A stretch of DNA of 13,570 nt, taken from Clostridiales bacterium (GTDB taxonomy: Bacteria > Bacillota > Clostridia > Christensenellales > Christensenellaceae). The stretch covers positions 1-13,570 of the forward strand of contig QAKS01000038.1 in the NCBI GenBank assembly GCA_003343685.1, read 5' to 3'. The notes beneath the pieces were generated by a model that ran no database searches, was not told the origin of the DNA, and saw nothing but the letters and a program-made list of their open reading frames with translations. Both the position numbers and the translations under genes were made by a program. The number at the start of each line of letters is the position of its first letter. Within the stretch, counting starts at the first letter, position 1. Positions 1-10,442 of this stretch are shown here, piece after piece.

Positions 1-796
1 TCTGTCTGGCAGCCTCCAGGTTGTTTAAATCGTAAGATGTAAAGACCTGAATGTCATTGCTGCTGTAATACTCTGTGAATGCGTCCGGGATTCTTTCATC
101 GGTAATCACTCTGGAACAGACGGAAAGGTCTCCCAGAGGTGAAAATGCGTTTTTATTAAAGCAGTCGCTGGTCACAGCCATCAGCGTATCGTCGGCATTT
201 TCCATAACGGTCTTATAAATATCGCAGATACCGGAATTCTGAACGCTGTACCCCGTATTCAGTTTGACTGCGTCGGGAGAGATAATGGCCTTGTCTACAT
301 ATTTGTCTTTGAGGTATTGAAGAGTGTCGGTTCCGGCAAGCATTGTTTCGCCGTTTTTGGAAACGGCAGACCCGGGCGTGGAAATCACATGCAGGTTGGG
401 ATTTTGTGCCATTAGGGCAATCGCCGTAACATTATTGGTAAGTACGGTGAGCTGTTCTTTTTTTGAAAGCTCTTCTGCGATTTTGGAGCACACTGCTCCT
501 GTGCCCAAATAGATGAAATCCGAATCGTCAATATAATATGCGGCCAGCTTGGCAATTGACCTAAGTCTATGTAGCTCGGGCGGCGTAAGAGTTCCTCCGG
601 ACGGCGGCATTACGTTGTCGCGCGCGACGGCTCCGCCGTGGGTCCGAATGACGATTCCGCTTTTCTCTAAAAAGACAAGGTCTTTTCGAATCGTAACTTC
701 AGATACGTTAAACTTCCGCGCGAGCTCGGATACGTCTACCTTTTCATTCTCTGCTACGATCTGTTGTATTGCATTTCTTCTGTCGCTTGTAAACAT
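1..796 (-). CDS. DeoR-family transcriptional repressor (C-terminus cut by window edge)
   Basis: This gene reads leftward from an ATG at 796-794 and is open to the window edge, giving about 265 residues, so little of a normal 250-270 residue DeoR protein can be missing. Residues 6-57 form the N-terminal winged helix-turn-helix; the recognition part reads VSELARKFNVSEVTIRKDL and is followed by the family hallmark RTHGGAV. The rest matches the DeoR C-terminal sensor domain, with a TNNVTAIA segment and a KTVMENADDTLMAVTSD segment. In the family this domain binds a phosphorylated sugar or similar effector that releases the protein from DNA. The usual D-[ST]-[ST]-K-F stretch is altered to SDCF, so the effector may be unusual. 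GGAAGG lies upstream of the ATG. The gene is divergent from the ABC transporter and glycyl radical enzyme operon, so it very probably represses that operon; this is inferred from position and candidate operators. Confidence 0.93.
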   Translation of the reverse strand, partial: MFTSDRRNAIQQIVAENEKVDVSELARKFNVSEVTIRKDLVFLEKSGIVIRTHGGAVARDNVMPPSGGTLTPPELHRLRSIAKLAAYYIDDSDFIYLGTGAVCSKIAEELSKKEQLTVLTNNVTAIALMAQNPNLHVISTPGSAVSKNGETMLAGTDTLQYLKDKYVDKAIISPDAVKLNTGYSVQNSGICDIYKTVMENADDTLMAVTSDCFNKNAFSPLGDLSVCSRVITDERIPDAFTEYYSSNDIQVFTSYDLNNLEAARQ

Positions 797-826
797 AGCC
801 GCCTTCCGATCCTTTTTCTATTATTT

Positions 827-855
827 ATGATACCATATGCACTAAAATATGGCAA
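827..855 (-). promoter_or_regulatory. Probable sigma-A promoter of the deoR-type gene
   Basis: Read on the minus strand, a -35 box TTGCCA (850-855) and a -10 box TATCAT (827-832) are separated by exactly 17 bp (833-849). Transcription would begin near 820, leaving a leader of about 24 nt that contains the GGAAGG ribosome binding site. The -35 box is part of a tandem TGGCAATGGCAA on the plus strand. Boxes and spacing are seen; activity is inferred. Confidence 0.55.
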
Positions 856-916
856 TGGCAAAATGTGCAGAGCCGTTTTAAAAAAATAGTAAAAAATTCT
901 GAAAAAAAGTATTGTG

Positions 917-985
917 TTTCGAAACGAAAGATGATATTATACTAATGCGAAAGAAAATTTTAAAAGACTAATTCGATTCGAAACG
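917..985. promoter_or_regulatory. Candidate DeoR operator: cluster of CGAAA repeats
   Basis: The pentamer CGAAA occurs four times on the plus strand: 920-924, 925-929, 948-952 and 979-983. The 9-mer TTCGAAACG occurs exactly twice, at 918-926 and 977-985, and contains the self-complementary core TTCGAA. The copies flank the -10 box of the transporter operon, one upstream in the -35 area and one in the leader RNA region. Direct repeats of TTTCG/CGAAA-like pentamers are known for operators of several DeoR-family regulators. Position next to the divergent deoR-type gene supports autoregulation and operon repression, but binding is inferred. Confidence 0.5.
937..943 (+). promoter_or_regulatory. 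Probable -10 element of the transporter / glycyl radical enzyme operon
   Basis: TTATACT contains TATACT (938-943), five of six matches to the sigma-A -10 consensus. No good -35 box is seen at 16-18 bp; the nearest is TTGTGT (912-917) at a 20-bp spacing. A weak -35 overlapped by a CGAAA repeat pair would fit a promoter controlled by a DNA-binding protein. The start point would be near 950, giving a leader of about 60 nt. Confidence 0.4.
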
Positions 986-1008
986 GAACTTGTAGGGGAG
1001 GATATGAC

Positions 1009-2481
1009 ATGGCAAAGCTTTTGGAAATGAAAGATATATGCAAATCATTTTCAGGCACGCAGATATTGTTTGACGTAAATTTTGATCTGGAAGCAGGGCA
1101 GGTACACGCCCTCGTGGGGGAGAACGGCGCAGGCAAATCCACACTGATCAAGACACTGGCGGGCGTACACCGACCGGACAGCGGGTCAATTCTGATTGAC
1201 GGAAGAGAAGTGGCGTTAAAGACACCGAAGGACGCCTTTGACAGCGGCGTCAGTACAATTCACCAGGAGTTTAACCTTGTACCCTTTTTGGATGTGGCGG
1301 CAAACATTTTTCTTGGAAACGAGAATACGACGGGCGGCGTGCTGAACAAAAAAGAGATGTATGACAGGACGCAGGAACTTCTGGATCGGGTCGGCGCTGA
1401 CATCAAGCCGAATACTCTTGTGAAAAAGCTGGGAGTTGCAGAAAAGCAGATGGTTGAAATCTGCAAGGCGCTCTCCATTCATTCTAAAATTATAATAATG
1501 GATGAACCGACGGCAGTCCTCTCGTCCAAGGAGATTGATAAGCTGTTTGCTGTAATCGAGTCGGTGAAGGCGCAGGGAATCTCCGTAATCTACATTTCGC
1601 ACCGCCTAGAGGAGCTTCCGCGCATAGCAGACAGAGTAAGTGTGCTCCGCGACGGACATATGATTGGCGAGGTGGAGGGGGAGTTTACCAAGGACAGGAT
1701 CACGAAAATGATGATTGGCCGTGATTTGACGGAGCAGTTTCCAAATGTGGAAAGAGAGCTGGGAGGTGTGGTTCTCAAGGTGGATCATCTAAACAGTGGT
1801 GCATTTCTGAAGGACATCAGTTTTGAACTCAGGGCGGGGGAAATCCTTGGGTTTTCGGGACTCGTCGGCGCGGGACGCACGGAAATGGCGCGGGCCATTA
1901 TGGGTCTGGACAAGAAGGACAGCGGCGATATCTATCTGAACGGTGAGAAAGTGGAGCTGAAATCTGCACTCAGCGCCAAAAAAAGAGGCGTCGTCATGGT
2001 ACCGGAGGAGAGGAAATCGGAGGGGCTTGTGCTCACCATGTCGGTGAAGGAAAATGTATCTCTCACATATCTGCCGTCCTTTGCCAAAGGTCCGGCCATA
2101 TCAGGGAAGGAAGTAGACGACAGGGCGGACGACGTGATTGACCGGCTGTCTATCCGGCCTGCGGACAGGAATATAAAGACGGTGAATATGAGCGGGGGCA
2201 ATCAACAGAAGGTGGCAATCGGCAAATGGATTTATAAAGACCATTCTGTAATGATATTTGACGAACCGACCCGCGGCGTGGACGTGGGTGCAAAAGCGGA
2301 AATTTATAAAATTATTGCGGGCATTGCAAAAAAGGGCGTCGGAATCATCATGATTTCATCGGATCTGCCGGAGATTATAGGTATGAGCGATCGGGTTATT
2401 GTAATGAAGGAAGGCAGAATATCCGGGGAACTGAAAAAAGACGTTTTGAGCGAGCATGCTGTGATGCAGCTGGCATTCTAA
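1009..2481 (+). CDS. RbsA-like two-domain sugar ABC transporter ATP-binding protein
   Basis: This 490-residue protein is the energy-coupling subunit of a carbohydrate importer of the ribose/galactose (CUT2) type and acts on the inner face of the membrane. Domain 1 shows Walker A GENGAGKST at 37-45, a signature region LGVAEKQMVEI at 141-151 (the C-loop form usual for RbsA/MglA domain 1), Walker B IIIMDEPTA at 161-169 and the H-loop His198. Domain 2 has a degenerate Walker A, GLVGAGRTE at 284-292, with Arg in place of Lys. It also has the CUT2-typical signature MSGGNQQKV at 394-402 and Walker B IFDEPTRGVDVG at 416-427. Length is normal. The start is fixed by AGGGGAGG at 994-1001, seven bases before the ATG. 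It is the first gene of the operon, 25 bp ahead of the permease. The substrate cannot be read from this subunit. Confidence 0.95.
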   Translation: MAKLLEMKDICKSFSGTQILFDVNFDLEAGQVHALVGENGAGKSTLIKTLAGVHRPDSGSILIDGREVALKTPKDAFDSGVSTIHQEFNLVPFLDVAANIFLGNENTTGGVLNKKEMYDRTQELLDRVGADIKPNTLVKKLGVAEKQMVEICKALSIHSKIIIMDEPTAVLSSKEIDKLFAVIESVKAQGISVIYISHRLEELPRIADRVSVLRDGHMIGEVEGEFTKDRITKMMIGRDLTEQFPNVERELGGVVLKVDHLNSGAFLKDISFELRAGEILGFSGLVGAGRTEMARAIMGLDKKDSGDIYLNGEKVELKSALSAKKRGVVMVPEERKSEGLVLTMSVKENVSLTYLPSFAKGPAISGKEVDDRADDVIDRLSIRPADRNIKTVNMSGGNQQKVAIGKWIYKDHSVMIFDEPTRGVDVGAKAEIYKIIAGIAKKGVGIIMISSDLPEIIGMSDRVIVMKEGRISGELKKDVLSEHAVMQLAF

Positions 2482-2506
2482 GGCTATTATTTGGAGGAGT
2501 GGGAAA

Positions 2507-3448
2507 ATGAAAGAGATGACAAAGAGATTTAAGGGAAAGATATCCGTCAACGGTGCGGTCGTAGGGCTCGTTGCGCTGTGTATTGTGTTTGGCATTATGA
2601 CGCCCTCGTTCTTTGGCGGATATAATATTATCAACATCGCAAGGCAGTGTTCCATCAATCTGATTCTGGCAGTGGGAATGACGTTTATTGTGCTGACAGG
2701 CGGTATTGACCTCTCGGTAGGAGGCGTCTATGCCTTGGTAGGTACGCTGGTCGCCGGATTTATAGCAGGCGGAACAAATATTGTTTTGGCCATTTTAATC
2801 GGACTGGTAGTAGGGATTGCCTGCGGGCTGTTTAACGGGGTATGTGTGGCGCTGGCAAAAATACCGCCGTTTATCACGACGATGGCGACGCTGAGTATTG
2901 CGAGAAGCCTAGCCCTCATCTACAGCGGGGGCTATCCTATTACGGGAATGCCGGACGAGTTTGCGTTTATCGGCTCCGGCTCTGTGGGATTCCTGCCTGT
3001 ACCTGTCATTATAGCGGCGGTAATTGTAGCAATAGGCGCATTTGTACTGAAAAAAACGGTTCTCGGAAAATATATCTATGCCATAGGAGGCAATGAGGAC
3101 GCTACAAGGCTGTCGGGAATTAACGTAAAGGCGTGGAAAATAGGGACTTATGGTATACACGGGCTGCTGATGGCAATTGCCGGAATTGTGATGACGGCGA
3201 GAATGAACTCGGGTCAGCCCGGCGCCGGGAGCGGTATCGAGCTGGATATCATAGCAGCGGTCGTCATCGGCGGCGGAAGCCTTTCCGGCGGCGAGGGAGG
3301 CATCTTTGGCACGCTGATGGGCGCGCTTGTCATCACCGTGCTGAACAATGGGTTGACGCTGCTCGACGTCAACTCCTACTGGCAGGGACTGATCATCGGA
3401 TGCGTCATCCTGATCGCAGTATTTCTGGATAAAAGGAAAAAAGCTTGA
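2507..3448 (+). CDS. RbsC-like sugar ABC transporter permease
   Basis: A 313-residue, strongly hydrophobic integral membrane protein of the CUT2 permease family, expected to form a homodimeric channel with the upstream ATPase. Hydrophobic segments fill most of the chain, consistent with 8-10 membrane helices. Family landmarks are GGIDLSVGG at about 65-73, IPPFITTMATL at about 119-129, the cytoplasmic GGNEDATRLSGINV loop that contacts the ATPase, and the late IIAAVVIGGGSLSGGEGG segment. The C-terminus is a short basic tail ending KRKKA. Its ATG is preceded by GGAGG (2493-2497) at nine bases. Only one permease is present, as is typical of RbsABC systems. No truncation or frame problem is seen. 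Confidence 0.94.
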   Translation: MKEMTKRFKGKISVNGAVVGLVALCIVFGIMTPSFFGGYNIINIARQCSINLILAVGMTFIVLTGGIDLSVGGVYALVGTLVAGFIAGGTNIVLAILIGLVVGIACGLFNGVCVALAKIPPFITTMATLSIARSLALIYSGGYPITGMPDEFAFIGSGSVGFLPVPVIIAAVIVAIGAFVLKKTVLGKYIYAIGGNEDATRLSGINVKAWKIGTYGIHGLLMAIAGIVMTARMNSGQPGAGSGIELDIIAAVVIGGGSLSGGEGGIFGTLMGALVITVLNNGLTLLDVNSYWQGLIIGCVILIAVFLDKRKKA

Positions 3449-3456
3449 CAATGTTT

Positions 3457-3493
3457 TTGGCTGAAAAGCCAAGTGAAAAAGCCCGAATTTGGG
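3457..3493 (+). other. Intercistronic hairpins before the binding-protein gene
   Basis: TTGGCT (3457-3462) and AGCCAA (3467-3472) form a perfect 6-bp stem closed by a GAAA tetraloop. A weaker CCC/GGG hairpin follows (3482-3484 with 3491-3493). Both lie between the permease stop and the ribosome binding site of the binding protein. There is a T-run after the second hairpin of only four bases, so full termination is unlikely. Such elements often adjust message stability so that the binding protein is made in excess; that role is inferred. Confidence 0.45.
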
Positions 3494-3506
3494 TTTTAAA
3501 ATAATC

Positions 3507-3512
3507 AGGAGG
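3507..3512 (+). promoter_or_regulatory. Ribosome binding site that fixes the binding-protein start
   Basis: AGGAGG ends six bases before the ATG at 3519. The in-frame ATG at 3513 abuts the motif directly and the in-frame TTG at 3489 lies upstream of it, so 3519 is the only well-placed start. Confidence 0.8.
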
Positions 3513-3518
3513 ATGAAA

Positions 3519-4580
3519 ATGAAGAAGAGTATTTTGTTGGTAATGATGGCGCTGGTCATGATAGTGTCCATGGTGGGATGCGCGAGCCCTGCGCCGCAGG
3601 AGTCCGGCGCAGCGGCGGGAGAGACTGCTGCTGCGGGCGAGCCAAAAGAAGGCAAGGCAGCATCCGATGTTGTGATTGCCCAGAGCATGCCTACGCTGAA
3701 CAATCCGTGGTACGTTCTGTTTGCAAACGGTTCCAAAGATATGGCGGAAGCCCTCGGCGTGGAACTGTCTCAGACCACGAACCCGGAAACAAATGAATGG
3801 GCGCCGGAGGAACAGATTAAGAAGATTGAGAACTTGATTGCAAAACAGCCTGACGTCATTGAGATTGATCCGACGAGCTCCGACGGCATCAACAGCGCGA
3901 TCGACGAAGCCAGAAAGCAGGGTATCTCTGTAGTCATGAGCGGAACGAAAGTTACGACCGAAGTGGAGTGCTCTATTACGGCAGACAACAAACAGGGCGG
4001 TAAGCTCTGCGGAGAGTTTATGGGTGAAGCGCTGGAAGGCAAGGGGAAGATTGCCATTCTCCAGGGAACGCCGGGCAGGGACGTTGTGCAGGCGAGGGAG
4101 GATGGCTTTAAGGAAGGCATCGCTGCCTATGACGGAATTGAGATCGTAGCGGAGCAGGTCGCCAATCTGGACAGGTCTGAGGCTGTAACGGTTACGGAGA
4201 ATATTCTTCAGGCAAACCCGGACATCGACGGCATCTGGGCGGCCAACGATGAGATGGCACTGGGAGCGATAGAGGCACTGAAAGCGCAGGGGCTGAACGG
4301 GAAAGTCATCGTTGGCGGTCTGGATTGCACGCCTGACGCTGTAGCGGCCATCGAGGAGGGCAATATGCACTTTACGGCCAACCAGGTTCCCTATGAGATG
4401 GGCGTCCGCGCCATAGCAATTTCAACGCTGATAGCGCAGGGTAAGGAAATTCCCTCCGATGACATCTCCCTCAACATGAGCCTCGTTACCTATGAAAATG
4501 TAGACGAATATCAGGACAACCAGGAAGCAGATCAAAAGGCAGTTATTGAACAGGTGATTCAGGAATACGGACTGAAATAG
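3519..4580 (+). CDS. RbsB-like sugar-binding lipoprotein of the ABC transporter
   Basis: The 353-residue product is the extracellular solute receptor of the importer. It begins MKKSILLVMMALVMIVSMVGC: a basic start, hydrophobic core and lipobox with Cys21 as the lipid-modified residue (Met at the -3 position is a less usual choice). Residues 22-50 are a low-complexity Ala/Gly/Glu linker, after which a type I periplasmic-binding fold starts with VVIAQSMPTLNNPWYV, the typical first strand and ligand-contact segment of the RbsB-type family. DGIWAANDEMALGAIEAL and VIVGGLDCTPDAVAAI are the usual second-lobe elements. Ligand is probably a monosaccharide, polyol or similar small molecule; it cannot be named. 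The gene lies 70 bp after the permease and is followed by a strong hairpin, fitting separate control of its level. Confidence 0.93.
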   Translation: MKKSILLVMMALVMIVSMVGCASPAPQESGAAAGETAAAGEPKEGKAASDVVIAQSMPTLNNPWYVLFANGSKDMAEALGVELSQTTNPETNEWAPEEQIKKIENLIAKQPDVIEIDPTSSDGINSAIDEARKQGISVVMSGTKVTTEVECSITADNKQGGKLCGEFMGEALEGKGKIAILQGTPGRDVVQAREDGFKEGIAAYDGIEIVAEQVANLDRSEAVTVTENILQANPDIDGIWAANDEMALGAIEALKAQGLNGKVIVGGLDCTPDAVAAIEEGNMHFTANQVPYEMGVRAIAISTLIAQGKEIPSDDISLNMSLVTYENVDEYQDNQEADQKAVIEQVIQEYGLK

Positions 4581-4600
4581 GAAGTATCGTATACAGTTTG

Positions 4601-4626
4601 GAGCCCGGAGATTTTTCTCCGGGTTC
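4601..4626 (+). terminator. Strong hairpin after the binding-protein gene (attenuator or stability element)
   Basis: Arms 4601-4611 and 4616-4626 pair over 11 bp (one G-U pair) around a TTTT loop; the core is CCCGGAGA with TCTCCGGG. The sequence that follows is A-rich and lacks a T-tract, so it is unlikely to be a full intrinsic terminator. Hairpins of this kind after binding-protein genes commonly protect the upstream message and reduce downstream expression; here the glycyl radical enzyme would be the gene affected. Confidence 0.5.
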
Positions 4627-4642
4627 ATCCTAAACAAAACAA

Positions 4643-4819
4643 ATGGATGGAAAAATTGTTTCAAATTCGGATAGATTGCAGACCGGAAAGAAAGGGCTGA
4701 AACCGTCCGTATTTGATAGAATAAAGGAAATAGCGATGGAAGGACACCGGGAACGCCGGTTTGACATAAAATGCGGAAAAGAAGGAAGACAGCACGGAGG
4801 TAAATATGAGAGGGTTTGA
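4643..4819 (+). CDS. Small hypothetical ORF (58 residues) overlapping the glycyl radical enzyme start
   Basis: An open frame of 58 codons begins at an ATG at 4643 and ends at a TGA at 4817-4819, overlapping the downstream gene by 14 bp in a different frame. The product is basic (it contains KPSVFDRIKEIAMEGHRERR) with one Cys. I do not recognise it. No ribosome binding site precedes the ATG (upstream bases are taaacaaaacaa), which argues against translation. It could be a leader peptide whose translation reaches the next gene's start, or chance. The rest of the 225-bp gap (4581-4805) holds the hairpin at 4601-4626, a small ACCGG/CCGGT hairpin at 4746-4760, and a lone TTGACA at 4761-4766 with no -10 box at the right distance. 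Confidence 0.15.
   Translation: MDGKIVSNSDRLQTGKKGLKPSVFDRIKEIAMEGHRERRFDIKCGKEGRQHGGKYERV
4796..4800 (+). promoter_or_regulatory. Ribosome binding site of the glycyl radical enzyme gene
   Basis: GGAGG lies five bases before the ATG at 4806. Reading upstream in the same frame meets a TAA stop with no earlier ATG, so 4806 is the supported start. Confidence 0.75.
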
Positions 4820-7085
4820 AAATCTAAAGAGCAAGGAATTTGATTTGGAGGCCTTTATGGTTTCCATAACATACCCGCCGGCGGGAATGACAATGAATCT
4901 GGCGAGAAAGCTGGTGACGGCGGAGTGTCCGGGGCTGGGAAATCTGGAGAGAGAAACGGCAATTCTCAGGAGAGCGCTGGAGATGCTGCCTGTCGGCATC
5001 AACGATACAGACGTAATCGCGGGCAATTACGGCCCGAAGTTTGCGGACCCCGAGCTGCTGGAAGCCATAAAAAAGGCTGACGAGGAGGAGTTTTCCGGAA
5101 GCGCGGAGTACAAGGTCAGAGATGAAGAGGAGAGGCTTGTAAGCGGGCGGTATATGCTGTTTGGCATCTATACGCCTTCTCATACATGCGTCGATTATGA
5201 GACGCTGATCACAAAAGGATTGAACCATTATAAAGAGAGAATCGAGAAGAGGCTTGCGGAGAATATCGACAAATATGCGACAGAATACCTGAATGCCATG
5301 CTGTACAGCATTGAGACAGTGGCCATATATGCGGGCAGATTCAGGAAACTGGCGGAGCAAAAGCTGAAGGAGTCGGAAGATAAAACGCAGATGGAAAATC
5401 TGGCCCGCATGGCGGATGCACTGTCGAGAGTGCCTATGGAGCCGGCGAGAGATCTGTTTGAGGCGCTCCAGTCCATATGGATGATGCATACGGCCATACC
5501 TACCTCCGAGCGCTCTTGGGCCTCTGTATCGCTGGGTCGCATGGATATGTATTTGATGCCTTATTATGAGAGATGGCTGGAAGAGGGCCATACGGAGCAA
5601 GAGGCTGTTGATCTGATGTCGGAATTTTTCAAGACTTTTGACGCCTATGGAGACGGATCCTGCGCGCTGAATATCGGCCCGGATTTTAACGCCATGAGTG
5701 AGGTTTTGCTAAAAGTGGAAAAAAGCGTAAAGCTCCGCTCGCCCATTATTGCGGTGAGGATGGAGAGCAGCACGCCGGACGAAATATATGACAAATATAT
5801 AGACAAAGAGCTGTTTGATATCGGACAGCCTACATTTTACGGAGAGGAAGCGTGCAGGGCGGCGATGGAATACCGGGGCATGGCGCCAGAGGAGGGACAC
5901 TCCGTCAACAGTTGTATGGGAATGGTCGTTGTCGGAAAAGAGCTGGCGGATATGTGGGGCTGTTGTGTTAACATGAATCTGCCGCTGGAACTGGCCGTCA
6001 ACAACGGCAGGCCAATTCTTGGGGAATTTCCACCCAGTCTCCGGCGGTTTACCGACCGGGTAACGCCGGAGCCGCCGACTGATTTTGAGGCGGTGAAGAG
6101 AAATTATGCCGGATACATTCGCGCTGTCGTGCAGTATGTGGTAAATGAGAACAGAAAGCGCTCTGCATGGGTATCGGTTAACAGGCCCAATCCGCTTTTG
6201 TCCATGATGCTGGACGATTGTATTCGGTATGGCAGAGACAGAGCACATGCCTCGTTCAAGGCGCTGGGAGAGGAAGCGCGGCAGCTGTTTGACGGCACAG
6301 AAGACGAATTCAACGCTATGCGGCAGGGCAGAGGCGTGCGGTATCACAATGTGACGGTGCTGTCCATGGGCTTTGCTCATGCGGCAGACGCGCTGGCCTG
6401 TATGAAGCAGCTTGTGTTTGAACAAAAAAAATATACGCTGAACGATTTGATGAACGCAGCCGCAGACAACTATGAAAGCCCCCGTTCCGCGCAGATCGGC
6501 GCAGATATGAGAAGCTGTGCAAAATATGCAGACGGGAGCGGCGAGGCTGACAAGTATGCGGCATATGTCTTAAATGCGCTTGCAGACGCCTGCGAGGCGT
6601 GTTATGATGGCAACATTCGCTATCTGCCCACCTGTCATACGATCGACGCGAATGTCCAGTTTGGCAACTGTGTTTATGCGTCTATGGATTCAAGACGGGC
6701 GGGCGAGCCGTTCGGGAAGAATGCGGGAGCGGTGATGTATGCTATCAAGAATACACCCACTGATCTATGTGTTTCATCGGCAGGACTGCCCTGCGAGAGA
6801 TTCAGCGGCGGCATGCCCATTGACATTTATGTGCCGGAAAATATTCTTTCGTCCAAGGAAAACAGGGATAAATTCCGCGGTCTGCTGAGGACATACTTTG
6901 ATATGGGAGGCATGCAGGTGCAGGTGAACAGCGTCAGCATAGACCTGCTGAAAAAGGCATATGAAGAGCCGGAAAACTACCCTCATGTGATCGTAAGAAA
7001 AGGCGGATTCAGCATTTACTTTACGGATATGCTGCGTGAGGTACAGAAAGACATGATAGACAGGTTTGAGATGGAGAGCAGATAG
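4806..7085 (+). CDS. Divergent glycyl radical enzyme (pyruvate formate-lyase superfamily), reaction unknown
   Basis: The 759-residue product has the architecture of a glycyl radical enzyme, which uses a backbone radical to form a cysteine thiyl radical that abstracts hydrogen from the substrate. Residues 30-75 match the family N-terminal part, ending INDTDVIAGNYG. The active-site loop reads HSVNSCMGMVVVGKELADM; Cys370 aligns with the thiyl Cys of choline lyase and diol dehydratases because the shared GKE and NLPLELAVNNG segments fall at the same distance after it. The Glu normally two residues after that Cys is Gly372. Near the C-terminus, YFDMGGMQVQVNSVS and the glycyl loop VRKGGFSIYF (Gly734) are present; the usual R-V-x-G-Y is R-K-G-G-F. 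Gly734 is 25 residues from the end, as expected. The activase follows immediately. The sugar-type importer and DeoR regulator suggest a carbohydrate-like substrate. Pyruvate formate-lyase, choline lyase and glycerol dehydratase are not supported by these residues. Confidence 0.88.
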   Translation: MRGFENLKSKEFDLEAFMVSITYPPAGMTMNLARKLVTAECPGLGNLERETAILRRALEMLPVGINDTDVIAGNYGPKFADPELLEAIKKADEEEFSGSAEYKVRDEEERLVSGRYMLFGIYTPSHTCVDYETLITKGLNHYKERIEKRLAENIDKYATEYLNAMLYSIETVAIYAGRFRKLAEQKLKESEDKTQMENLARMADALSRVPMEPARDLFEALQSIWMMHTAIPTSERSWASVSLGRMDMYLMPYYERWLEEGHTEQEAVDLMSEFFKTFDAYGDGSCALNIGPDFNAMSEVLLKVEKSVKLRSPIIAVRMESSTPDEIYDKYIDKELFDIGQPTFYGEEACRAAMEYRGMAPEEGHSVNSCMGMVVVGKELADMWGCCVNMNLPLELAVNNGRPILGEFPPSLRRFTDRVTPEPPTDFEAVKRNYAGYIRAVVQYVVNENRKRSAWVSVNRPNPLLSMMLDDCIRYGRDRAHASFKALGEEARQLFDGTEDEFNAMRQGRGVRYHNVTVLSMGFAHAADALACMKQLVFEQKKYTLNDLMNAAADNYESPRSAQIGADMRSCAKYADGSGEADKYAAYVLNALADACEACYDGNIRYLPTCHTIDANVQFGNCVYASMDSRRAGEPFGKNAGAVMYAIKNTPTDLCVSSAGLPCERFSGGMPIDIYVPENILSSKENRDKFRGLLRTYFDMGGMQVQVNSVSIDLLKKAYEEPENYPHVIVRKGGFSIYFTDMLREVQKDMIDRFEMESR

Positions 7086-7991
7086 ATGCTGCGCATATTC
7101 GACGTTCAACGGTTCAGTGTACAGGATGGGCCGGGAATCAGAACGAGCGTATTTTTAAAAGGCTGTAATGTAGGGTGCCTGTGGTGTCACAACCCGGAAT
7201 CGCTCTCCCACGAACCACAGCTGATGTACTATGAAGAGAAATGTGTCCTGTGCGGCGTTTGTACCGCGGTTTGCGCCCAAGGTGTACATGAACTGAATAA
7301 AAGAGAGCACCGTCTGAACCGCAGCGCCTGCATTGCGTGCGGGGCATGTGCAAAAGTCTGTCCTGCGGGCGCGCTTGAGCTGGCAGGGTATGATATCGGT
7401 ACAGCAGAGCTTATGGAGAGCGTTTTGCGTGACAAAGCCTTTTATGAGAAAACCGGCGGAGGCGTGACGTTCAGCGGCGGTGAACCGCTGGCACAGGCGG
7501 CAGAACTGGCGAAGGTATTGCAACGGTGCAAAGCGAAAGATATCCATACGGCGGTGGAGACCAGTTCAAACGTGCCGGAACAGGCCATAAGAGCGGTGAT
7601 GCCATATACCGATCTGTTTATTTGTGACATCAAATGTGCGTCGAACGCGCTGCACAAAAAGGTGACGCGCACAGGAAACGGAGCGATTCAAAGAAATCTG
7701 GAGATGCTGTTTCACAGCGGAAAAAACATGTGGATACGGATTCCCGTGATTCCGGGAGTAAACGACACGGAACAGGAGCTTATGGCAATGGCGGCATTGA
7801 TCCGAAGAGGAGGCGCTGCTGTTGAGCGAATAGAGTTTATGCCGTACCACGATTTCGGAAAGAGTAAATATACCGCCCTTGGGATGGATTATCCGTTTGA
7901 AACGGAGTACGGAAAATGTGAGAATGCAAAACAGCGGGCTGTGTATGCACAAAAGATTTTTGCAGAGCTGGGGCTTACCGGTATTGTCTGA
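7086..7991 (+). CDS. Glycyl radical enzyme activating enzyme (radical SAM)
   Basis: This 301-residue protein would install the glycyl radical on the upstream enzyme using S-adenosylmethionine and a [4Fe-4S] cluster. DVQRFSVQDGPGIRTSVFLKG leads into Cys27, Cys31 and Cys34 (C-x3-C-x2-C), followed by HNPES. A ferredoxin-like insert has two complete C-x2-C-x2-C-x3-C clusters, at Cys53/56/59/63 and Cys82/85/88/92, which is the arrangement of non-PFL glycyl radical activases. GGGVTFSGGEP at 124-134 is the SAM-binding glycine-rich motif. Length is normal. The ATG follows the upstream TAG directly with no gap, and GGAG (7073-7076) lies nine bases before it inside the enzyme gene, so translation is probably coupled. 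It is the last gene before the strong terminator. Confidence 0.95.
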   Translation: MLRIFDVQRFSVQDGPGIRTSVFLKGCNVGCLWCHNPESLSHEPQLMYYEEKCVLCGVCTAVCAQGVHELNKREHRLNRSACIACGACAKVCPAGALELAGYDIGTAELMESVLRDKAFYEKTGGGVTFSGGEPLAQAAELAKVLQRCKAKDIHTAVETSSNVPEQAIRAVMPYTDLFICDIKCASNALHKKVTRTGNGAIQRNLEMLFHSGKNMWIRIPVIPGVNDTEQELMAMAALIRRGGAAVERIEFMPYHDFGKSKYTALGMDYPFETEYGKCENAKQRAVYAQKIFAELGLTGIV

Positions 7992-8034
7992 CGGTACCGG
8001 TTTATCTGTTTGCAAAAACTTTCCTCCATATTTT

Positions 8035-8081
8035 AAACTATCCCCTTCAGCATTTTTGGATGCTGAAGGGGATAGTTTTTT
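8035..8081 (+). terminator. Intrinsic terminator of the transporter / glycyl radical enzyme operon
   Basis: Arms 8035-8053 and 8060-8078 are perfectly complementary over 19 bp with a 6-base TTTTGG loop, and the descending arm ends in a run of six T (8076-8081). The stem contains the G/C-rich block CCCCTTCAGC. It lies 43 bp after the activase stop and ahead of the trmL promoter. On the minus strand only a short TTTAAAA follows the stem, so the plus-strand direction is favoured. Confidence 0.88.
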
Positions 8082-8819: not shown

Positions 8820-10442
8820 ATGACTATTTTCAACTTGTTTGCACTGCTGGGGGGACTTGGGCTTTTCATTTACGGCATGAACTTGATGTCGGACGGCTTG
8901 GAAGCTGCCGCAGGAAACAAGATGAGAAAATGGCTGGGCATTGTGACGAGGAACCGGTTCAGCGGACTGCTGCTGGGGACGGGAATGACAATAGCGGTTC
9001 AAAGCTCCAGCGCAACAACGGTCATGGTGGTCGGATTTGTCAACGCGGGGCTGATCAGCCTGAAGCAGGCGGTCAGCATCTGTATGGGTGCGAACATCGG
9101 AACGACGGTTACCGCGCAGATTCTGGCCTTTGATTTTGACAAATTTGCTCCGCTTATATTGTTTATCGGCATTGTCATGATTATGTTTGTAAAAAACAAG
9201 GAGTGGCAGAAGATCGGCCAGATTGTGGCGGGCTTCGGCATTCTGTTTATGGGCATGATGTTCATGTCGGAGTCAATGGAGGGCCTGCGGGAATGGGAGC
9301 CGTTTATTGACATCCTCTCCTCCTTTGAAAGCCCGGTGATCGGCATACTGGCAGGAACGGCAATCACCGCGATTATGCAGGCAAGCGGCGCAACGATGGC
9401 GATGCTGCTGGCGTTGGGCTCAACGGGCCTCATTTCTCTCGACAATTCCATGTATGTGATACTCGGACTCAACATAGGCACATGTATTACGGCCATACTG
9501 GCAAGCATGAAGGCCAACAAGACGGCGAAGCGTACCGCTGTCGTACACGTTCTGTTCAATGTGATCGGTACGCTGATTTTTGTGGTACTCCTGAACGTGC
9601 TGCCCATTAAGGAATGGATATACTCCCTGTCGCCGGGCAGTGTGGAGAGACAGCTGGCTAACTTCCACATGATGTTCAATATCGTAACGACACTCATACT
9701 CATATGGTTCCCCGGTTTGCTCATCAAACTGTCATACCTGTTTGTCCGGGGCGAGGATCCGAAGGGAATAGAATTAAAGCTGCAGTACCTGATTCCCTCA
9801 ATGCTGGACAACCCTCCGGTCGCAGTCAGCATGGCAGTCAAGGAAGCGGCGCGTATGGCGGGAATAGCGAGGGACAATATATCCCTTGCCATGGAATCCT
9901 TCTTAAAGAGGGACGCCAGCCGGATGAACGAGATTAAAAAGACGGAGGAGACGGTCAACTATCTCAATCACCAGATTACGGATTTTCTGGCGAAGCTGTC
10001 TCAGGAAGAGCTGCCTGTGGGGGACAGCCAGTCTGTATCGTCTCTGTTTCATATGGTGATGGATATTGAAAGAATTTCTGACCATGCCGAAAATATAGGG
10101 GAGTTTACCGAATACGAAATCGACAAAAACGTCATACTCTCCGAAGAGGGCAGGCGAGAGATTACCACGATGATGGATAAGGTCGGCGAGGCTCTGGACA
10201 ATGCGGTAAAGGCTCTGTCGGAAGGAGATATGGCGGCGGCGGACAAGGTAATTGAGATTGAACAGGAGGTGGACGATTTGGAGACCATCCTGAAGGACAA
10301 TCACGTGGAGAGGCTTGGCCGCGGCGAGTGCAGCACAGGTGCGAGCATGATGTATGCCGATCTGGTAACCAATCTGGAGAGGGTTTCCGACCACTCTACA
10401 AATATTGCCTACCGGGTGAAACAAGACGGCATCTATAAATAA
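8820..10442 (+). CDS. Na+/phosphate cotransporter family protein with C-terminal PhoU-like domain
   Basis: This 540-residue protein has an N-terminal membrane half of two inverted Na/Pi-cotransporter repeats and a cytoplasmic PhoU-like tail. The first repeat carries the hallmark QSSSATT at 61-67 followed by GANIGTT at 90-96; the second has the matching QASGATM at 187-193 and GLNIGTC at 216-222. The tail from about 330 contains two PhoU helical signatures, ERISDHAENIGE near 417-428 and ERVSDHSTNIAYR near 519-531. The family (NptA-like, COG1283) takes up phosphate with sodium, and the PhoU part is thought to regulate this or bind metal. GGAGG (8806-8810) precedes the ATG by nine bases. It is 42 bp ahead of pgk with no terminator visible, so it may share a transcript with glycolysis genes. 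Substrate specificity is by family only. Confidence 0.9.
   Translation: MTIFNLFALLGGLGLFIYGMNLMSDGLEAAAGNKMRKWLGIVTRNRFSGLLLGTGMTIAVQSSSATTVMVVGFVNAGLISLKQAVSICMGANIGTTVTAQILAFDFDKFAPLILFIGIVMIMFVKNKEWQKIGQIVAGFGILFMGMMFMSESMEGLREWEPFIDILSSFESPVIGILAGTAITAIMQASGATMAMLLALGSTGLISLDNSMYVILGLNIGTCITAILASMKANKTAKRTAVVHVLFNVIGTLIFVVLLNVLPIKEWIYSLSPGSVERQLANFHMMFNIVTTLILIWFPGLLIKLSYLFVRGEDPKGIELKLQYLIPSMLDNPPVAVSMAVKEAARMAGIARDNISLAMESFLKRDASRMNEIKKTEETVNYLNHQITDFLAKLSQEELPVGDSQSVSSLFHMVMDIERISDHAENIGEFTEYEIDKNVILSEEGRREITTMMDKVGEALDNAVKALSEGDMAAADKVIEIEQEVDDLETILKDNHVERLGRGECSTGASMMYADLVTNLERVSDHSTNIAYRVKQDGIYK

Follow-up and report, generated by a model that had tools for sequence, protein, structure and literature searches.

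Several subfamilies of glycyl radical enzymes (GREs) have, once characterized, revealed hidden anaerobic pathways, including those for hydroxyproline, choline, isethionate, and anhydroglucitol. GRE eliminases are defined, in the account given in PMC7077986, by a Cys-X-Glu (CXE) loop, the glutamate of which is commonly put forward as the catalytic base of most of these enzymes, forming the ketyl radical. Among the GREs of sugar catabolism, the anhydrohexitol-6-phosphate lyases YbiW and PflD of anhydroglycolysis are tied to a sugar uptake system and cleave a C-O bond. Their substrates are 6-phosphates made by a phosphotransferase system (PTS) (PMC12441222). The stretch analyzed here (13,570 nucleotides of contig QAKS01000038.1, assembly GCA_003343685.1, hereafter the window) comes from a Clostridiales bacterium of the Christensenellaceae, probably an anaerobe, and carries a deoR-family regulator gene and, divergent from it, five genes for a CUT2-type importer, a GRE, and a radical S-adenosylmethionine (SAM) activase. 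Like the YbiW and PflD systems, this unit places a sugar-type uptake system beside a GRE, whereas its importer is of the CUT2 type. CUT2 importers do not phosphorylate their cargo. On balance, we lean toward reading the unit as an operon induced for the anaerobic breakdown of a monosaccharide-like compound that carries no phosphate, most likely one that serves feeding on a sugar-like compound; its substrate, reaction, and regulation are inferred here from sequence comparisons.

The plus strand carries, in order, genes for an RbsA/AraG-like ATPase (positions 1009-2481), an RbsC-like permease (2507-3448), an RbsB-like lipoprotein substrate-binding protein (SBP; 3519-4580, with AGGAGG ahead of its ATG and a VGC lipobox), a 759-residue GRE (4806-7085, matching PF02901 and PF01228), and the activase (7086-7991). 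The gaps between them are 25, 70, 225, and 0 bases, the TAG of the GRE gene abutting the ATG of the activase gene. The activase scores 345.8 bits against a curated cut-off of 174.35 for TIGR02494 and carries a CX3CX2C motif and two CX2CX2CX3C ferredoxin motifs. On the minus strand, divergent to the importer genes, the deoR-family gene (796-2; PF08220 and PF00455) encodes 265 residues with both the HTH_DeoR and the DeoRC sensor domain and no stop before the window edge, its C-terminus lying outside the window. An RbsA-type ATPase, an RbsC-type permease, and a Peripla_BP_4 binding protein together identify the importer as CUT2. The open reading frame (ORF) list and the NCBIfam and Pfam profiles thereby bear out the gene positions and families of a first-pass annotation of this DNA, including its assignment of the importer to CUT2 and the regulator to DeoR. 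By the same list and profiles, no kinase, PTS gene, isomerase, or aldolase is found among the genes of the unit.

The enzyme has the features of the GRE superfamily, namely a PFL-like barrel fold, a Cys loop, a C-terminal Gly loop, and a paired radical-SAM activase, and it represents a subfamily of its own. It falls short of the NCBIfam cut-offs for HypD, CutC, sulfopropanediol dehydratases, HPAD, IAD, PFL, and PFL2-3; its best NCBIfam score is to TIGR01774 (245.8 of 678.2 bits), followed at a distance from the respective cut-offs by HypD (211/1100), CutC (181.9/1050), and PFL (53.7/994.2). In structure alignments, the eliminases (glycerol/propanediol dehydratase, CutC, HypD, and IslA) are 22-26% identical to it and carry a CXE loop, whereas the window enzyme has a Cys-Met-Gly loop and a CUT2 importer beside it. 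The Archaeoglobus GRE 2f3o (pyruvate formate-lyase 2) is 22% identical and has C-V-E in the aligned loop. YbiW and PflD lie across a tree split with support 97/98, and their PTS has no counterpart in the unit. A reading as a relative of Escherichia coli YjjI (DUF3029), suggested by a PF11230 match to residues 211-370, was set aside because YjjI sits on a very long tree branch; YjjI has 516 residues, and no close kinship was seen. The view of the first-pass annotation that the enzyme cannot be placed among the known GREs is therefore upheld by profiles, tree, and alignments for all characterized subfamilies tested.

The presumed thiyl radical residue, Cys370 (codon 5913-5915, plus strand), lies in the motif NSCMG where CXE is expected, and the presumed glycyl radical residue, Gly734 (codon 7005-7007, plus strand), lies in RKGGFS. 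In a 64-row alignment of 59 family members and five outsiders, Cys370, Met371, and Gly372 are invariant in the family, as are Glu379, Trp384, Arg479, His611, Asn639, Asp673, and Gln704, seven positions where none or almost none of the outsiders has the family residue. His126 aligns with a histidine of HypD and the diol dehydratases. The CXE glutamate occurs in 0 of the 59 members vs. three of the five outsiders, so that by the defining loop the family stands apart from the eliminases, although it may yet cleave a C-O bond. In a 52-row alignment, YbiW, PflD, HypD, and CutC have this glutamate; PflB (ACCVSP) does not. Absence of the glutamate was rejected as a trait unique to the family, because in 35 rows of that alignment L038, L050, L053, and P0110, in addition to PflB, also lack it and have other residues in its place; among these rows, the complete C-M-G loop is confined to the window family. 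Both the missing glutamate and its absence from PflB would suit an enzyme that performs C-C chemistry on the imported compound, as a PFL-like fragmentation or an X-succinate-synthase-like addition, in place of C-O cleavage, an alternative that we consider unlikely. A GRE without the presumed eliminase base would offer a test of how general that mechanism is.

The pairing of importer and enzyme recurs in distant relatives. A protein search gave 115 GRE relatives, of which the 43 top-scoring ones (P0001-P0043, with the window enzyme among them) are termed close here; each is at least 47% identical, some are fragments, and P0045, a 55%-identical fragment, was counted with the second group. A scan of named genome contigs found 29 GRE loci, five of them close (57-63% identity), in Spirochaetaceae (L001), Christensenella (L002), Lachnospiraceae (L003), Family XIII (L004), and Blautia (L005). 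In L001, from the phylum Spirochaetota, the order ATPase-permease-SBP-GRE-activase is kept, with identities of 60, 70-71, 60, 60, and 49%, respectively. L003 combines a divergent DeoR gene (44% identity across 149 residues) with genes for ATPase, SBP, GRE, and activase; the permease gene and portions of neighboring genes are missing, owing to either deletion or assembly collapse. There, pieces of DeoR, ATPase, and SBP are fused (L003:1740-3773), and 12 contigs are given for the cluster of the truncated SBP, P0353. In L002, the genes downstream of GRE and activase form a distant CUT2 set (32-42%). The order in L004 is GRE, activase, aldo/keto reductase, FGGY kinase, 2-hydroxyacid dehydrogenase, and a shikimate-dehydrogenase-like gene; at 1e-5, neither a CUT2 permease relative nor an SBP relative turns up in this locus. 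L005 has no orthologous importer 3' of the GRE, and its contig ends 0.7 kb upstream of it. Across the five enzyme-bearing genomes (G001-G005, all drafts), the locus thus holds an orthologous importer in two, a distant CUT2 set in one, and neither in two. Genome-wide, close SBPs are confined to the GRE loci of two genomes: G001, where the close SBP is the single match at E 1e-15 (65%), and G003, where it is 63% identical and the 17 other SBP matches reach at most 36%.

A second line of evidence came from comparing the longest-contig size of each GRE cluster with those of 119 SBP relatives. Fifteen of the 43 close GRE clusters match an SBP cluster exactly, 12 of them at over 9,000 bases (sizes include 103535, 136865, and 268226 bases), and the listed sources overlap in all 15 pairs. 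Sizes shifted by 1-5% gave a mean of 0.11 matches, the 72 other GREs gave one (5295 bases, presumably chance), and a list of shikimate-dehydrogenase-like proteins gave one match with GREs (28274 bases, L004 itself) and one with SBPs. Judged from equal size, the SBP and the enzyme would therefore share contigs across many genomes. That the two are chance neighbors that merely share a piece of mobile or accessory DNA is highly improbable in view of this coincidence, the touching GRE and activase genes, and a gene order kept over two phyla at 49-71% identity. The thought draws on the missing close importer in three of the five genomes and on a rare and patchy family: at 1e-100, only the seed genomes were matched in six overlapping groups of 392, 297, 195, 197, 64, and 13 genomes, the first, second, and fourth drawn from larger groups. 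No relative was found in the viral contigs scanned.

The importer points to a sugar-like ligand other than plain ribose. None of its parts reaches the cut-off of any NCBIfam family shown, and RbsABC itself is missed by each component (RbsA 522/745 bits, RbsB 167/337, RbsC 290/398). At the positions that we take to be the ribose contacts of RbsB, the window SBP retains Asn13, Arg141, Asn190, Asp215, and Gln235 and has Trp-Tyr for Phe15-Phe16, whereas Gly-Thr/Ile/Ser takes the place of Asp89-Arg90; this holds for every one of the 14 enzyme-linked SBPs spanning the site, of which one, P0275, differs at two of the retained positions. The window SBP is thus no plain ribose binder. Many of P0302-P0352 are SBP relatives of about 590 residues (33-38% identity), a few with PF07905, and the two that were examined both keep the ribose pocket.

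Named SBP relatives at 51-57% identity come from Neorhizobium, Pseudarthrobacter, Microbacterium, and Agrococcus, which are aerobic genera in which a GRE would be useless. A Neorhizobium plasmid importer (SBP 54%, permease 54%, ATPase 43% identical to the window's) precedes genes for a zinc alcohol dehydrogenase, a FucU/RbsD-family mutarotase, an SMP-30 lactonase, a GntR regulator, and two further enzymes, namely an enolase-superfamily sugar-acid dehydratase and an SDR protein, and the operon looks like an oxidative aldose pathway. Most SBPs of the Neorhizobium-type group have Ser for Asn190, and the ligand of this group may therefore differ from that of the window SBP. As a lead only, the FucU likeness could hint at an aldose, perhaps of L-fucose, L-galactose, or D-arabinose shape. 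The earlier suggestion of a small sugar, polyol, or related compound is thus narrowed slightly, by the aldose-oxidation-like rhizobial operon and by an RbsB-like pocket that lacks Asp89-Arg90.

In the best-supported sequence of events, a free sugar-like compound is imported and radical attack precedes phosphorylation. DeoR would act as a repressor at the TTCGAAACGRAA sites and be relieved by a ligand derived from a sugar, and the CUT2 importer would take up a free aldose or close analogue. With SAM, the activase would generate a radical on Gly734 that is then passed to Cys370, and the resulting thiyl radical would abstract a hydrogen atom at one of the carbinol carbons of the unphosphorylated sugar. 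Cleavage of a C-O bond, or less likely of a C-C bond, would follow, and family-invariant residues such as His126, Glu379, and His611 may serve proton transfer instead of the CXE glutamate. The deoxy or ring-opened product might then be phosphorylated, perhaps by an FGGY-type kinase such as the one adjoining the enzyme in two relatives, and would feed into lower glycolysis. In L001 an FGGY kinase gene follows directly downstream, and in L004 it comes second, a placement that makes phosphorylation after the GRE step plausible. Another FGGY kinase, about 48% identical to that of L001, adjoins a CUT2 importer near another GRE in the Lachnospiraceae genome (L074:2100-9513).

Several observations weigh against the proposed pathway. 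The kinase adjoins the enzyme in only two of the five loci, and FGGY kinases are common, with 15 matches in G003 at 1e-30. The glutamate missing from all 59 family members speaks against ordinary dehydration. Each of the Neorhizobium enzymes scores under the cut-off of the NCBIfam families to which it shows likeness, so that the aldose pathway is read from gene composition. A close SBP is absent from the draft genomes G002 (at most 39% identity), G005 (one match, 34%), and G004 (none at 1e-15), which indicates that the enzyme can use another supply. The first-pass annotation had said that importer and enzyme look like one pathway, a reading to be abandoned if the enzyme fell inside a characterized subfamily or if the two were routinely apart in related genomes. 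The evidence is mixed: the pairing recurs in the five-gene order of L001, the divergent DeoR gene of L003, and the contig coincidence, and the enzyme falls in no characterized subfamily tested, whereas no close importer was found in three of the five genomes. One further alternative is that an isomerase, kinase, and aldolase encoded elsewhere break down the imported sugar classically and that the GRE comes in one or more steps further on, its substrate being an intermediate that is phosphorylated or shortened. Diol dehydratases have such a place after the breakdown of deoxysugars. GREs for 1,2-propanediol act after fucose or rhamnose breakdown, and the mutarotase gene that accompanies the rhizobial-plasmid importer relatives would fit such a route; it is nonetheless improbable for a unit that contains none of these three enzymes and whose GRE, without CXE, is so distant from the propanediol/glycerol dehydratases (22-26% identity).

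The pairing of CUT2 importers with GREs may extend beyond the window family. L071 (G003:C67) and L072 (G002:C148) have other GREs, about 24% identical, in the order ATPase-permease-SBP-GRE-activase, and three more loci (L073-L075) have CUT2 sets near GREs. A proximity statistic used 70 of 109 PF13407 matches (E to about 1e-28; one LacI-type match removed by hand) and 22 GREs merged from 29 rows, with genome-wide random placement as the null. A Peripla_BP_4 gene lies within 5 kb of eight of the 22 GREs vs. 1.8 expected; with the window family excluded, the counts are five of 17 vs. 1.5 (P 0.013) and, within 600 bases, two of 17 vs. 0.46 (P 0.08). As a general trend, the clustering is suggestive only, the statistic without the window family being weak. 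It can be proposed tentatively, with somewhat more doubt than confidence, that the window enzyme performs radical chemistry on a free aldose through its Cys-Met-Gly loop, without a CXE base, as one case of a mix-and-match pairing of CUT2 importers and GREs that opens uncommon sugars to anaerobes; the shared gene order with two such dissimilar GREs speaks for this wider pairing. If the layout proves general, the genomes of Clostridia and other anaerobes could be mined for such pathways by one simple rule. Since the GRE has its own importer, the ligand of which can be screened directly, the question of the substrate is testable. A literature search of titles and abstract openings, with few subscription papers, turned up no work that dealt with either a CUT2 importer paired with a GRE or a GRE having a CMG loop. 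G002 (Christensenella sp. UBA5399) has ten GRE genes in 2.3 Mb, with rows merged by hand, and one of them is split over two ORFs (L002:19173-21676).

The control region common to deoR and the importer (797-1008) holds two exact copies of TTCGAAACGRAA, at 918-929 and 977-988, which are candidate operators. They are the only exact copies in the window and none occurs in L001-L005, the control region of L003 having been lost through fusion; TTCGAAACGRAA was accordingly rejected as a conserved operator. A simple promoter and terminator scan gave no plus-strand sigma-70 match in 797-1008. In the 225-base gap between the SBP and GRE genes, folding predicts a strong plus-strand hairpin at 4601-4626 without a T tract (61-nt fold, -22.9 kcal/mol, z -4.5). 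Such hairpins are often found behind highly expressed binding-protein genes. The first-pass annotation had described a closed unit with a perfect terminator. As one transcript, the closed unit would be putative, and the hairpin lies between its SBP and GRE genes. The terminator-like end stem on the plus strand (8035-8078) shows 100% complementarity along 19 nt and has a predicted fold of 20 pairs (-32.5 kcal/mol, z -9.3), half of its six-T run falling within the stem; the simple scan, which found 13 terminator sites vs. 12.5 expected, did not list it, and the description as a perfect terminator therefore depends on the fold. No Rfam family reaches its gathering score in the window.

In L001 and L004, a shikimate-dehydrogenase-like gene adjoins the genes of the enzyme or the importer, and all five genomes contain such a gene. 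It was rejected as a pathway member, since 7918 of 7993 scored candidates match it at 1e-60 and presence alone is uninformative for so nearly universal a match. L093:4999-9138 and L001:2034-5307 have in common a 2-hydroxyacid dehydrogenase, a KDPG aldolase, a cupin-type phosphoglucose isomerase, and a shikimate-dehydrogenase-like protein; the last reaches no Pfam cut-off despite thousands of relatives. In the window, the genes 3' of the unit match the family profiles of TrmL and a Na/Pi cotransporter, the latter (8820-10442) having a PhoU domain and lying apart from the unit. Three more downstream ORFs, which we take to be pgk, tpiA, and gpmI, are unrelated to it.
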